Positions 26,301 to 31,723 of a DNA stretch of 64,000 nucleotides are shown piece after piece. Below the pieces are notes generated by a model. That model made no database searches. It was not told where the DNA came from and saw only the letters and a program-made list of their open reading frames with translations. Source of the stretch: Spongilla lacustris (lineage: Eukaryota > Porifera > Demospongiae > Spongillida > Spongillidae); assembly GCA_949361645.1 (NCBI GenBank), contig OX442423.1:5431505-5495504 (forward strand), given 5' to 3'. Position numbers and translations under genes: made by a program. Position 1 is the first letter of the stretch; the number at the start of each line of letters is the position of its first letter.

Positions 26301-26945
26301 TACCTTTTACTATCACCAATATCGATCTTTTGGCCTTAGCTTTGTCCTCATGTCTTAATTAGATTCCATCCATCCTAGCTCTATCAAGGCGTAATGGATT
26401 TTATGTGCATTCTGAGTGACTTAATTCTCCATAATGTCCTTGCATGCAGCAACCAACATTATGCACATAACAGCACGCGTGTTCATCCAATTTGTCATCT
26501 GATGTTGACCTGAATTTTGCAATTTCATCAGACACAGTTACTATGTCAAGTAAACATTCGAAACACAAAGGTACATGTATGTGTTGTTTACATGGTTAGC
26601 ATTTTATTATTCATAGATATCAATAAATAAGCATGAGAAAATCATCTCAATCTTATCTTACTACTGTGGTACTTACAGTATAGGTCAATAAAAAGTTAGG
26701 ACAAAGGAAATTTTTACGAACGTAACGTAATTTAATACTTTCGTAACGGAATATCTTACCTTCCTAACGATTACGTTCAATACAAATGAACAACATAGCG
26801 ATGGAAACGGACATGTGTTTCATGTCTTGTTAGCAAGGCAGGTGCTTTATTTTAGCGCCGGATCAATTCACAAACAACAAATCAGTTTGCAGCGCGCCTT
26901 TTACGCGTCCTTGCATCCCTTACAAACTGTCGCGCGCGCGCGGTC

Positions 26946-26952
26946 TATATAA
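26946..26952 (+). promoter_or_regulatory. TATA-like box of the BEN-like gene
   Basis: TATATAA lies 40 bp upstream of the ATG at 26992 and 270 bp inside the TIR. The paralogous gene in the other TIR element has the same word at a similar distance. Confidence 0.45.
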
Positions 26953-26991
26953 TTCATCGCCTTAAGATTTTTAGTACCACAGTACGACGCA

Positions 26992-29272
26992 ATGACTCTG
27001 CGTGTGGCCCTAAAGGAAACAGGTTAGTCTTTTTTTCGTGCCGCAGCTTCTTTTTAGTACCACCGCTTGTCGAAATGTAGAGCTGTACCATCTTATCCTC
27101 TGGAACGAAGAGGATACAGTATCTATTGTCAGAGGCAGTAGCATCACTTCCCCGCAACAGAGCGACATCACTGTAGGCGCAATATGTTCCATTAAGCACG
27201 GGAGGAATGTAAACAATGGAACCGTTTTGGCTTCAGGTAAACCACAATAGATTTCGATAAACCACATGCAAACCGCATAATGAATGTAATTAGGATCAAA
27301 GCTGTTGGTGGAGGCAAAGGAAGCTGAATTCATCTCCCAAGTGCAGCCAGAAGGGGAAGATGCGCCAACTGACACAGCTCCATCTGCTAAAAAGAGTGGG
27401 TTTGAATAAATGATCATGCACAATAATACTGTGTGATGATTAGGAAAGATGAAAGCAAAAGTGAGCCAGCCAGCAGTAACAAAATCCAGAGTTGTGAATC
27501 CAAAAGGTATAAGATTGAGGTGTTATAAACATGCTGTAAATAATGTATGTTTAGGGAAAATATTGTGCCATGCTCCTTCTGCCAGCAATTCATCAGTCGT
27601 TTCAAGTAGGGTAGAACGTGTGTGCCACTCAATTCTATCAGTGCCCACCACACCTACAGCTCTACCAGTGCCCACCACACCTACAGCTCTACCAGTGCCC
27701 ACCACACCTACAGCTCTACCAGTGCCCACCACACCTACAGCTCTACCAGTGACCACCACACCTACAGCTCTACCAGTGCCCACCACACCTACAGCTCTAC
27801 CAGTGCCCACCACACCTACAGCTCTACCAGTGCCCACCACACCTACAGCTCTACCAGTGACCACCACACCTACAGCTCTACCAGTGCCCACCACACCTAC
27901 AGCTCTACCAGTGCCCACCACACCTACAGCTCTACCAGTGCCCACCACACCTACAGCTCTACCAGTGCCCACCACACCTACAGCTCTACCAGTGCCCACC
28001 ACACCTACAGCTCTACCAGTGCCCACCACACCTACAGCTCTACCAGTGCCCACCACACCTACAGCTCTACCAGTGCCCACCACACCTACAGCTCTACCAG
28101 TGCACACCACACCTACAGCTCTACCAGTGCCCACCACACCTACAGCTCTACCAGTGCCCACCACACCTACAGCTCTACCAGTGCCCACCACACCTACAGC
28201 TCTACCAGTGCACACCACACCTACAGCTCTACCAGTGCACACCGCACCTACAGCTCTACCAGTGCCCACCACACCTACAGCTCTACCAGTGCCCACCACA
28301 CCTACAGCTCTACCAGTGCCCACCACACCTACAGCTCTACCAGTGCCCACCTCAACTACAGTTCAACCAGTGGCCACAACTCTATCTTTTCCCAGTGTGT
28401 CATCTCCCTTATCTAGAACTCCATCACCGCTACAACCACCGTATCGTCCACAGTTTTTTTCCTCTTATTCACGAGAAGATTCTCAGGTAGCTGATGCAGG
28501 TGAGAGTACCGTCATTGTGTACAACTCAACTTTAATAACTGCAACCTTATAAACAGTGAAACAGATTGTACGGGACATACTAAATGCCATTGAAGCCATG
28601 CACCAGCACTTGGCCGAGCTACTGCAGAGCAGGAGTGATCGGCAATCCCGACCAAGAACATCATCAACCCAATGGCAGGAATGGCCGCCACAAGAGAACC
28701 TATGGCAGCTACCATCCCTACCACCATCACAGCTATCATCGTTTTTTCCACCAACTCAGAACTCACCACTTTTCCCACCATCTCAGCTGTCACCATTTTA
28801 TCCCCCAATGCAACAGGCACCAACAACACCAACTGAAACCTCCTCTAGCATTAGCAACTCTCCACTAGCCGGTGAAACTAGCATCACAGCAGTGGGAAGG
28901 CCAAGGTGCATACCAATACAAGGTGTAAACCATTTACCATCTTCAGTAATAAATAAAAGCATACTTAGAAGTCCTGAAGTAGTAGTACAGTTGTACCCAA
29001 AGTTAGTGACAGAAAGCAAATTGCACACACTGGCATTAAAACTTGCAGTAGATGCGTATTTTGGGTTGCCTGTAATGGCACAATGCACAGTATTAGGGTG
29101 TGCAGGTTTTAAAGGATTACCCATTACTGAACTTAATGAACTAAAGTTATTTTTGTATAGTAAATGTAGCAAGTATTGGAGCACCCCTTTTGAATTTGAG
29201 CCACTATGGACAAGATGTATGGACTCAATTGGACATGGTTGCACTAGAGCAAGAAGGGGTAGCATTGTTTGA
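26992..29272 (+). CDS. BEN-domain-like protein, six exons, transposon cargo
   Basis: Exons 26992-27022, 27081-27236, 27294-27395, 27444-27506, 27555-28499 and 28557-29272 join with five GT-AG introns of 48-58 nt, all phase 1, to give 671 codons including stop. Residues 1-10 are MTLRVALKET. Residues 11-62 hold ELYHLILWNEEDTVSIV and end in NGTVLASG, a small conserved N-terminal module also found in the 15.3-kb copy. A charged linker and 26 copies of VPTTPTALP-type repeats follow. The last ~100 residues (SPEVVVQLYPKLVTESKL, AYFGLPVMAQCTVLG, FEPLWTRCMDSIG) resemble a BEN domain, a helical DNA-binding fold. Role inferred: nuclear DNA- or chromatin-binding protein. The family call is from memory of sequence style, not a search. 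The start was chosen because exon 1 is conserved in the second copy. Confidence 0.65.
27647..28348. repeat. 27-bp coding minisatellite, 26 copies
   Basis: The unit CCCACCACACC plus TACAGCTCTACCAGTG is repeated 26 times with very few substitutions (GTGACC, GTGCAC and one ACCGCACC variant). In the gene frame it gives VPTTPTALP. The near-identity of units indicates recent expansion or homogenisation. Confidence 0.95.
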
Positions 29273-29379
29273 CTTGATCTGTTGTGTATGTATTTGGTGT
29301 ACATGTTTTATAATCACTATATCCTTTTGTGTTAGTCAGATGGGCAAGGCAGGGTGTGGCCATAATAGATGGTTACTAC

Positions 29380-30225
29380 GTGGGAATACAGCGCCTGTCC
29401 GTAACATATACCTGGGTGTGGCCATAACAGATGGGCACTATATGGGAATACAGTGCCTGGCCGTAACATATACCTGGGTGTGGCCATAACAGATGGGCAC
29501 TATATGGGAATACAGCGCCTGGCCGTAATAGATACCTGGGTGTGGCCATAACAGATGGGCACTATATGGGAATACAGTAACATATACCTGGGTGTGGCCA
29601 TAACAGATGGGCACTATATGGGAATACAGTAACATATACCTGGGTGTGGCCATAACAGATGGGCACTATATGGGAATCCAGCGCCTGGCCGTAATAGATA
29701 CCTGGGTGTGGCCATAACAGATGGGCACTATATGGGAATAAGGCGCCTGGCCGTAACATATACCTGGGTGTGGCCATAACAGATGGGCACTAAATGGGAA
29801 TACAGCGCCTGGCCGTAATAGATACCTGGGTGTGACCATAACAGATGGGCACTATATGGGAATACAACGCCTGGCCGTAACATACCTGGGTGTGGCCATA
29901 ACAGATGGGCACTATATGGGAATACAGTGCCTGGCCGTAACATATATCTGGGTGTGGCCATAACAGATGGGCACTAAATGGGAATACAGCGCCTGGCCGT
30001 AACATATACCTGGGTGTGGCCATAACAGATGGGCACTATATGGGAATACAGCGCCTGGCCGTAACATATACCTGGGTGTGGCCATAACAGATGGGCACTA
30101 AATGGGAATACAGTGCCTGGCCGTAACATATACCTGGGTGTGGCCATAACAGATGGGCACTAAATGGGAATGCGGTGCCTGTACCTGGGTGTGGCCATAA
30201 CGATGGGTGGGAATAAGGCACTTAG
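29380..30225. repeat. minisatellite, ~62-bp unit, ~13 copies
   Basis: GGGTGTGGCCATAACAGATG, GGCACTATATGGGAATACAG and CGCCTGGCCGTAACATATAC are repeated, with short units near 29570-29640 lacking CGCCTGGCC. It lies between the 3' ends of the two convergent genes of the element. The GGGTGTGG(C/T)CA core recalls the ~61-bp family at 11.8-16.1 kb. Confidence 0.9.
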
Positions 30226-30355
30226 ACTTTCCCTTGTGTGGGCATATATAGTCCTCTGCTGTAATGTATGTGTGTTAGAACTTTGTAACAGCTGACTTTG
30301 ACAAAATAAATAAGTCACTTTGAATATACATGTACAATGTTCTGCTATACATAAT

Positions 30356-31512
30356 TCAATACCCAGTAGGGTGGCCCTGTCTTTCAATACACTTTGGAAT
30401 TACTTTTTTTAGGTGTCTAATGTATTTTGTGTAAACTTCAGGTGTAACTGTATTCCAAAACTTCATGATACCATTGATGAGCTCTTCCTTGTTCGTTGGC
30501 TTTACTTCCCTTCTCATGTACTCTTTCAACTCATGCCACAAGTTCTCAATCGGATTCAGGTCAGGTGACTCTGCTGGCGTCCTAAACCAATTCACATTCT
30601 TTTCTGCCAGGAAGCCCTGAGCAAGTTTAGAAGTATGCTTTGGATCGTTGTCAGCCATGAATCGATGAGAATCGCTGTACTTGTGCTGGATAAATGGCAA
30701 GAGTGAAGAGTCCAAGATGTTGGTGTACAGTTCAGCATCCATTATACCATCAAATATGCATAGTTCAGTTGTCCCTCGCATACTAATTCCACCCCATACG
30801 TGAACCTTCACTGGGTGCTTTGGTCTGAAAGCAGAAACATGTACCTCGTCATCAACAATGCAGGATGAGAATCTGATAGTTATACTATCTGCATACACAC
30901 CACACTTTGAGGTCAGCGTACAATGTACCTTGGTTTTGGTTTTGCGGGTTGTCCAATCTTGCGACAACAAGTTCTGCGGTGCGTCTCCAATTGAATGGAA
31001 CTCTCGTCCGTCCAAATCACATCTTGGAAATCGTCTAGCTGGTGTGCCTGGCACCACGCTAAGCGCTTAGCTTTGTTCGCTTCTCGAATGGTCTGGCAAT
31101 AAGCGCTCCCACGAAAAACCCATCCAAGCAAAGTTCGGGCACGCAAAACTGTACGCAAAGAAATGTTGTATCCTATTCATGGAACGTAATCAAAAGTACC
31201 GGTAATAAGAATAATAGTATAATTACCGAGCTCCTTCAAGAAACCGTGTATCTGACAGGCAGTTGTTTCGTCATCCTTCTGCATCCAGTTCTCCACTAGC
31301 GCCTTCACTTCACGCGTAATCTTTGTCGGACGACCTGACCCAGGACGCCGCGAAATACATCCTGTTTTAGCTACCCGTAAAAGAAATTTGTAAATACCAA
31401 CATCACTGGCACGTATACCCTCGTTTAGCAACAGGTTTCTAATCCTGCGCGCCTTACGCCCCTGTTCGTGGTAGAACAAAATCCTTTGTTTCACGTACGT
31501 TGTGTATACCAT
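30356..31512 (-). CDS. Tc1/mariner DD34E transposase, three exons, apparently intact
   Basis: Exon 1 (31512-31227) starts MVYTTYVKQR and carries a helix-turn-helix region and a GSGRPTKIT linker. A 78-nt intron (31226-31149) precedes exon 2 (31148-30929) with GWVFRGSAYCQTIREANK and the first catalytic Asp in DVIWTDES. A 104-nt intron (30928-30825) precedes exon 3 (30824-30356) with PVKVHVWGGISMRGTTE, the second Asp in FMADNDPKHTS and the Glu in SPDLNPIENLWHELKEY. There are exactly 34 residues between the second Asp and the Glu. The joined exons give 975 nt, 324 residues, with no stop. An in-frame ATG further upstream at 31593 would add 27 residues. The enzyme cuts and pastes DNA at TA sites. 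TIRs surround it at 26676 and 31721. Confidence 0.85.
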
Positions 31513-31723
31513 CTCCGCAGTAATAGAAGAATAGAAACTCCAGCTGCAAGTGCGTACCAGCCGCTCCCACGTGATATGATGTTTACATGTCAATATGTCG
31601 ACATCATCGTTAGCTTGTTCTTAAGAATTTCATTTCGCGAACGTAAAGTATTCCGTTACGAAGGTAACGGAATACGATAGTAACGGACTACGTTGTCCTA
31701 ACTTTTTATTGACCTATACTGTA

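Follow-up and report, generated by a model that had tools for sequence, protein, structure and literature searches.

Is the BEN-like gene that lies beside a Tc1-type transposase at positions 26676-31721 of this Spongilla lacustris sequence a working part of the transposon, or has it come to stand there by accident or as a passenger? The stretch analysed, hereafter the window, comprises 64,000 nucleotides of contig C10 (C10:5431505-5495504), and the genome searched comprises 248.6 Mb in 51 contigs. Sequence comparison places the element in an old Tc1 (DD34E) lineage with two co-diverging convergent genes, as seen across ten lineages sampled in the genome. The BEN gene is probably an integral second gene and a working part of the element rather than a passenger, because the pair recurs in one orientation at 42 loci among the matches listed and the two genes co-diverge. 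The original prediction had treated the BEN gene as cargo of a Tc1 transposon; the two-gene element stands, while "cargo" probably understates a pairing that recurs and co-diverges.

The region 26676-31721 is a single element bounded by perfect 29-bp terminal inverted repeats (TIRs), each flanked by TA. Within it two intact genes converge, one of six exons read from the plus strand and the transposase gene, of three exons, read from the minus strand; both the ends and the convergent multi-exon plan are as first proposed. Its features are as follows.

26674-26675, TA target-site duplication, left
26676-26704, plus strand, left TIR, 29 bp, perfect
26712-26775, left subterminal region holding motifs of the CGTAACG type, which are candidate binding sites with weak statistics
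26992-27022, plus strand, BEN exon 1 (MTLRVALKET), matched by three Ephydatia muelleri models
27081-27236, plus strand, BEN exon 2, N-terminal conserved piece (LYHLILWNEEDTVSIV...)
27294-27395, plus strand, BEN exon 3
27444-27506, plus strand, BEN exon 4
27555-28499, plus strand, BEN exon 5, in which a 27-nt tandem array (27.6 copies) runs in frame at 27634-28377
28557-29272, plus strand, BEN exon 6 including the stop codon, BEN fold modelled from 28895-29269
29352-30171, non-coding 62-bp tandem array of 13.6 copies, between the BEN gene and the transposase
30824-30356, minus strand, transposase exon 3 including the stop codon, with the second D and the E of the DDE triad
31172-30929, minus strand, transposase exon 2
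31512-31227, minus strand, transposase exon 1 with the start codon
31633-31692, right subterminal region with GTAACG/CGTTAC motifs
31693-31721, minus strand, right TIR, 29 bp, perfect
31722-31723, TA target-site duplication, right

The BEN gene model, predicted by eye, has five introns that are all of phase 1 with GT-AG ends and encodes 670 residues, in agreement with the original proposal. The junction between exons 1 and 2, at which MTLRVALKET is followed by ELYHL, is supported by three E. muelleri models starting MSLRTALKETELYHL; a fourth model from that sponge reads on through the position of intron 1. The BEN gene has 29 related proteins, and the 12 of these that are named are all from E. 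muelleri, the Em prefix in eukprot being taken as the species. The protein consists of a conserved N-terminal piece, a repeat region and a C-terminal BEN domain, in that order. A W..ED..S.V pattern in the N-terminal piece is present in the window, in a second family described below (family 2), in E. muelleri and in a further BEN gene of the genome (L034), while in family 3 a similar piece, WPDEDSVTAVP, was recognised by eye and the scripted pattern found no match. The predicted C-terminal fold matches the solved BEN domains of BANP, BEND3, insv, NACC1 and BEND6, all of them host proteins, which bears out the BEN-like domain claimed at the outset in spite of a missed Pfam cut-off.

The three transposase exons join into an open frame of 332 codons. 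The gene had been described as an intact DD34E transposase of 324 codons, of which the intactness and the DD34E signature hold and the length does not. Many database proteins of about the same size align with the spliced product along its full length (100%), with a best identity of 63% (120 of 2543 matches listed), and the profile search proposed for it gave Pfam DDE_3 at 77.3 bits, well over the cut-off of 28.6. The spacing from D235 to E270 leaves 34 residues between them if the first D of a DND motif is the catalytic residue, as we take it to be by convention; counted from the second D (237), it is 32. The N-terminal helix-turn-helix profiles scored below their cut-offs (HTH_32 at 26.2 against 33.7 bits, HTH_Tnp_Tc3_2 at 13.9 against 31.5 bits). 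Three other Tc1 transposases in the genome, at C2:5476460, C12:5476352 and C1:22559751, each occupy one open frame of 323-350 residues with 44-50% identity and are apparently intronless relatives.

One objection to a two-gene element is chance juxtaposition or nesting, in which the left TIR would belong to a solo or other element and the BEN gene to the host. A search of the genome with 26 nt of the TIR region, at up to three mismatches, gave 21 matches and none with the reversed control. Both TIRs face each other at five places (the window, a copy B on C10, and copies on C3, C16 and C17), with BEN and transposase exons in all five, and TA is found on both sides at C3, C16 and C17 as well. Copy B (C10:4916555) was rejected as a separate insertion, since it shares 9 kb, flanks included, with the window at 99.76% identity and so represents either a segmental duplicate in inverted orientation or a duplicate of the assembly; because B duplicates the window insertion, the number of separate insertion sites is four. 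Within the stretches read, 12 copies and fragments of this family (family 1) were inspected, and at least one BEN exon was present in 11 (all except C4:6.64 Mb) and at least one transposase exon also in 11 (all except C1:15.07 Mb). Instead of transposase-only copies of 1.5 kb beside a solo left TIR, the search returned a single short copy with family 1 ends (C1:24873924-24875239, 1.3 kb), which looks like a deletion derivative because fragments of BEN exons 1 and 2 remain in it. The nested-element reading was rejected, since the same TIR pair encloses both genes at the four separate sites, as two further families do with other TIRs, and these independent copies leave it a negligible probability; no observation spoke in its favour.

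The copies also differ in their state of preservation. For BEN, the window copy, B and C3 keep an open frame, whereas C5 and C17 have a broken one; the transposase frame is open in the window copy, B, C3 and C17; both genes are open at two of the four separate sites, the window and C3. Exon 5 measures 945 nt in the window, 819 in C3, 1452 in C5 and 732 in C17, all multiples of three, which is partly automatic because the repeat unit is 27 nt; in the decayed C6 copy it measures 643 nt. By eye, the C16 copy (L014/L015) holds a Gypsy-like retrotransposon inside BEN exon 5, and the C17 copy (L012/L013) a BEL/Pao-like retrotransposon in BEN intron 4.

Two TIR-like matches with three mismatches (L030 and L031) carried neither gene in the 4 kb examined; at about 110-380 of L031, an element of about 0.27 kb with TIRs like those of family 1 was seen by eye and is likely a miniature inverted-repeat transposable element (MITE). 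L023 and L024 were rejected as copies, as they hold only rearranged pieces of the BEN gene. They are two of seven equal-scoring matches to BEN exon 1-2 DNA and share 390 bp at 99%, in which BEN exon 1-2 DNA is fused to a segment from the 3' end of the BEN gene in inverted orientation. As for copy B, the stretch read there (L009, C10:4914600-4923600) is the window element with its flanks, inverted and about 0.54 Mb away. A second BEN/Tc1 pair is mirrored as well (C10:5421430-5423978 and C10:4956245-4958700), giving a duplication of about 42 kb if continuous, or else an assembly duplicate.

Does the pairing extend beyond family 1? The last BEN exon gave 91 matches in the genome, which merge into 84 loci, and the transposase gave 170, of which the 150 listed, the set used for counting convergence, merge into 83 loci; in both searches scores were given for the best candidates. 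Among these listed matches, the nearest transposase lies downstream, on the opposite strand and within 12 kb at 42 of 84 BEN loci, against a chance expectation of about 0.17, in a count that treats copies of one family as separate loci. The transposase is otherwise placed within 12 kb at three more, which makes 42 of 45 linked BEN loci convergent. Seen from the other side, 46 of the 83 transposase loci have a convergent BEN gene (Pfam BEN included), 5 have one otherwise placed and 32 have none. TIRs were located for families 1-3, and half of the convergent loci (21 of 42) fall by our own sorting outside these families, where TIRs were not sought.

Family 2, with TIR TACAGTAGAGGACGCGATAAAGGTTA, shows a BEN gene facing a Tc1 transposase in the stretches read (L029 and L033), with 44% identity to the window in the BEN domain and 57.5% in the transposase. 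The transposase adjoins the BEN gene in all eight copies, seven of which lie inside TIR pairs 10-12 kb apart; the eighth has the right TIR only and a run of N in its stretch. Family 3, with TIR TACAGTAGCGGTCAAAAAAAACATCACA, has the same two-gene plan (L035-L037), and all four of its copies face a Tc1 transposase within TIR pairs of 6-12 kb; in the copy read, the first part of the transposase is split over two frames. Among the three families, identity is 44-60% for BEN and 58-70% for the transposase. A sister group of family 2, with TIR TACAGTAGGGG, consists of long elements and has 12 TIR pairs 8-15 kb apart. The one copy of it read (L032, C1:3058000-3066950) is 8.66 kb long and decayed, with BEN and transposase remnants and long repeats of the 165-bp type found in family 2, and was rejected as an autonomous element in favour of a decayed non-autonomous relative; copies of this non-autonomous kind probably owed their movement to a relative, for instance family 2. 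Two short elements are likely MITEs: one of about 0.28 kb at C25:2489326-2489609, with TIRs like those of the sister group, and one of about 0.6 kb at C1:11899355-11899954, with TIRs like those of family 3.

The two genes have also diverged together. Ten lineages (f1-f10) were picked by hand, namely f1-f3 and seven more, with f4 and f5 being near twins; both genes of f8 are interrupted by stops, and the transposase of f10 by one. The distance matrices of BEN domain and transposase are correlated at Mantel r 0.957 (p 0.0001), at 0.912 (p 0.0001) when the most distant lineage, f10, is left out, and at 0.846 (p 0.0004) without both f10 and f5. Both trees contain the groups f4+f5+f6+f9 and f3+f7, the latter with support of 0.39 for the transposase and 0.74 for BEN; the deeper nodes of the BEN tree are poorly supported, and f8 and f1 are placed differently between the trees. 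The selection test covered eight lineages for BEN (without f8 and f10) and seven for transposase exon 2 (without f1, f8 and f10). Apart from the twins f4 and f5, with 0.06 and 0.028, the BEN pairs (27 of 28) have a proportion of synonymous differences (pS) of 0.69-0.92, which is near saturation, and one of nonsynonymous differences (pN) of 0.23-0.42. Comparison of these coding sequences shows the BEN domain to be under purifying selection between lineages.

These results bear directly on the possibility that the BEN gene was taken up from the host on a single occasion and has since been hitch-hiking without any role, which we consider very improbable. A passenger would hardly be expected to co-diverge with the transposase and be conserved between lineages, to keep an open frame in two separate insertions or to stand convergently at nearly all linked loci, as observed here. 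Several observations weigh on the other side and against an integral BEN gene. No transposase was found within 12 kb at 39 of the 84 BEN loci among the matches listed, and the BEN gene L034 (C13:3037300-3044300), 64% identical to the window domain, is not followed by a Tc1 transposase within the next 3.9 kb and may belong to the host or to an element that has decayed; these stand-alone BEN genes are what the passenger explanation would lead one to expect, as is a ratio of nonsynonymous to synonymous change (dN/dS) that is not low for BEN within family 1. Between the window and C3, dN/dS is 0.61 for BEN on 9 changes and 0.11 for the transposase on 7, and the ten pairings of five copies from family 1, broken ones included, give BEN values from 0.34 to 1.34. 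Between f4 and f5, it is 0.57 for BEN on 12 changes and 0.30 for the transposase exon on 15. In recent time BEN has thus been either less constrained or constrained to a degree that escapes measurement, the changes within families being too few. At C1:22700122-22717375, seven BEN matches lie on the same strand within 17 kb, and none of the matches listed is a transposase within 12 kb of them.

The identity of the domain is also open to objection, as the best Foldseek E-value for the window BEN domain is 0.36 and the window protein, scanned as residues 1-146 and 433-670 with the repeat region left out, has no Pfam match, including none to BEN (PF10523). The protein misses this model because its sequence is too diverged, and this divergence is what separates it from the host BEN proteins with which it shares the predicted C-terminal fold. 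Relatives with the same plan do pass PF10523, f4 at 23.7 bits, f10 at 26.1 bits and the loci C2:5472045 and C3:14473771 at 29.4 bits; of five genome loci passing Pfam BEN, three face a Tc1 transposase among the matches listed. A Pfam scan of 15 database relatives gave no match for 11 and matches below the cut-off for four, three of these being BEN. In addition, a search of PDB with the BEN alignment (A1) gave a single match, not a BEN protein, at E 0.33, and no match to that alignment was found in the viral contigs scanned.

What might the second gene do? In the explanation that we favour, and hold to be somewhat more probable than all others taken together, the element belongs to an old Tc1 lineage with two genes, and its BEN protein would work on the DNA of the element itself, with an anti-silencing role like that of VANC in Arabidopsis. 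The protein is predicted to be an element-encoded, sequence-specific DNA-binding factor, which would recognise the element's own non-coding DNA, either subterminal motifs or family-specific tandem arrays or both. Its binding might keep the chromatin of the element open and thereby permit expression and transposition, while the transposase, judging from its family, would perform ordinary cut-and-paste at TA. This self-recognising factor is preferred because the anatomy closely resembles the VANC system. VANC proteins combine conserved domains with variable tandem-peptide regions, their anti-silencing targets are tandem repeats that vary between related elements, and they are less conserved than the adjoining transposase, according to passages of PMC5735166 and PMC10398659. 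Likewise, in the sponge element, as compared with those passages, the protein encoded beside the transposase diverges faster than the transposase and contains variable tandem-peptide regions, and the non-coding tandem arrays vary from family to family. The non-coding arrays have units of 62 bp in family 1 and 38 bp in family 3, both between the genes, and of 165 bp in family 2, upstream of the BEN gene; arrays in open frame have units of 27 nt in family 1 and 33 nt in family 3, and the family 2 gene holds a possibly coding 231-bp array. VANDAL elements are Mutator-like, unlike Tc1. VANC carries DUF1985/DUF287 according to the part of PMC5735166 consulted, and neither was found in the two scanned pieces of the window BEN protein.

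The candidate binding sites are also relevant to another reading, ranked second and in our view possible though doubtful, that the BEN protein is a transposition accessory factor which binds subterminal repeats and aids the transposase in end assembly, nuclear entry or target choice. Within the window element, CGTAAC/GTTACG is confined to subterminal DNA (3 occurrences) and the 62-bp array (8), as a helper might require, and the convergent two-gene plan and the co-divergence of BEN with the transposase would suit a helper too. The subterminal motif is statistically weak, a point that also counts against the preferred self-recognition: its count has p 0.004 against shuffles and 0.064 against random pairs of window stretches, so that 6.4% of such pairs reach the observed count. 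Moreover, Tc1/mariner transposases are commonly regarded as able to work without a helper. Helper roles have been proposed for the second proteins of other two-gene DNA transposons. In PIF/Harbinger, a transposase is accompanied by a Myb/SANT DNA-binding protein whose role is called unclear by the authors of PMC4482050. That system, as far as described there, is likewise a two-gene DNA transposon with a DNA-binding second product, and it differs in its TWA target and Myb/SANT protein from the TA target and BEN fold seen here, with no Myb/SANT match in the two BEN pieces scanned.

A self-regulator that represses its own promoter or the transposase and thereby limits damage was also considered. 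Some BEN proteins act as repressors, insv and BEND3 among them, and both are among the solved relatives of the window domain; a repressor in every copy would be hard to maintain through selection on single copies, and we regard this role as improbable. The anti-silencing explanation that we prefer also has a bolder form, in which the transposon BEN protein reads the fast-evolving arrays of its own family and lifts silencing there only, the arrays diverging in step with BEN protein and transposase, as a separately arisen animal counterpart of VANC; on the present analogy this seems rather unlikely, if less so than self-repression.

With respect to known Tc1-like DD34E elements, the TIRs, the TA duplication and the DD34E transposase with Pfam DDE_3 are all familiar, and its 332 residues fall within the range of 282-345 given in a Tc1/mariner review (PMC2874221), whose section on the superfamily gives an element length of 1-5 kb and names a transposase only. 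The differences here are the second conserved gene beside the transposase, the splicing of the transposase, and the size: the element measures 5.05 kb in the window and 6.2 kb in C3, both exceeding the 1-5 kb stated in that section, which is a range and no strict limit, and the TIR pairs of families 2 and 3 span 6-12 kb. Among the papers listed, up to 6-20 per search, none dealt with BEN genes in Tc1 elements judging by title or opening of the abstract, a search outside which Repbase and most subscription papers lie, so that an earlier description is possible. Only PMC5704228 combined BEN domain, mariner and DNA transposon, and the one BEN-domain passage seen in it stands in the reference list. 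Tc1 elements and the BEN fold were each already known; a two-gene Tc1 element with BEN appears to be new.

Tc1/mariner is the textbook one-gene, host-independent transposon, and its long-lived linkage with BEN indicates that a second function can be gained and kept. The BEN-Tc1 pair provides a concrete animal system for asking whether proteins that counter silencing or assist transposition are supplied by transposons themselves, and the finding bears on the origin of the many BEN-type genes in this genome. If the BEN protein were indeed an animal counterpart of VANC, some animal BEN regulators could descend from transposon genes or repeatedly exchange with them.

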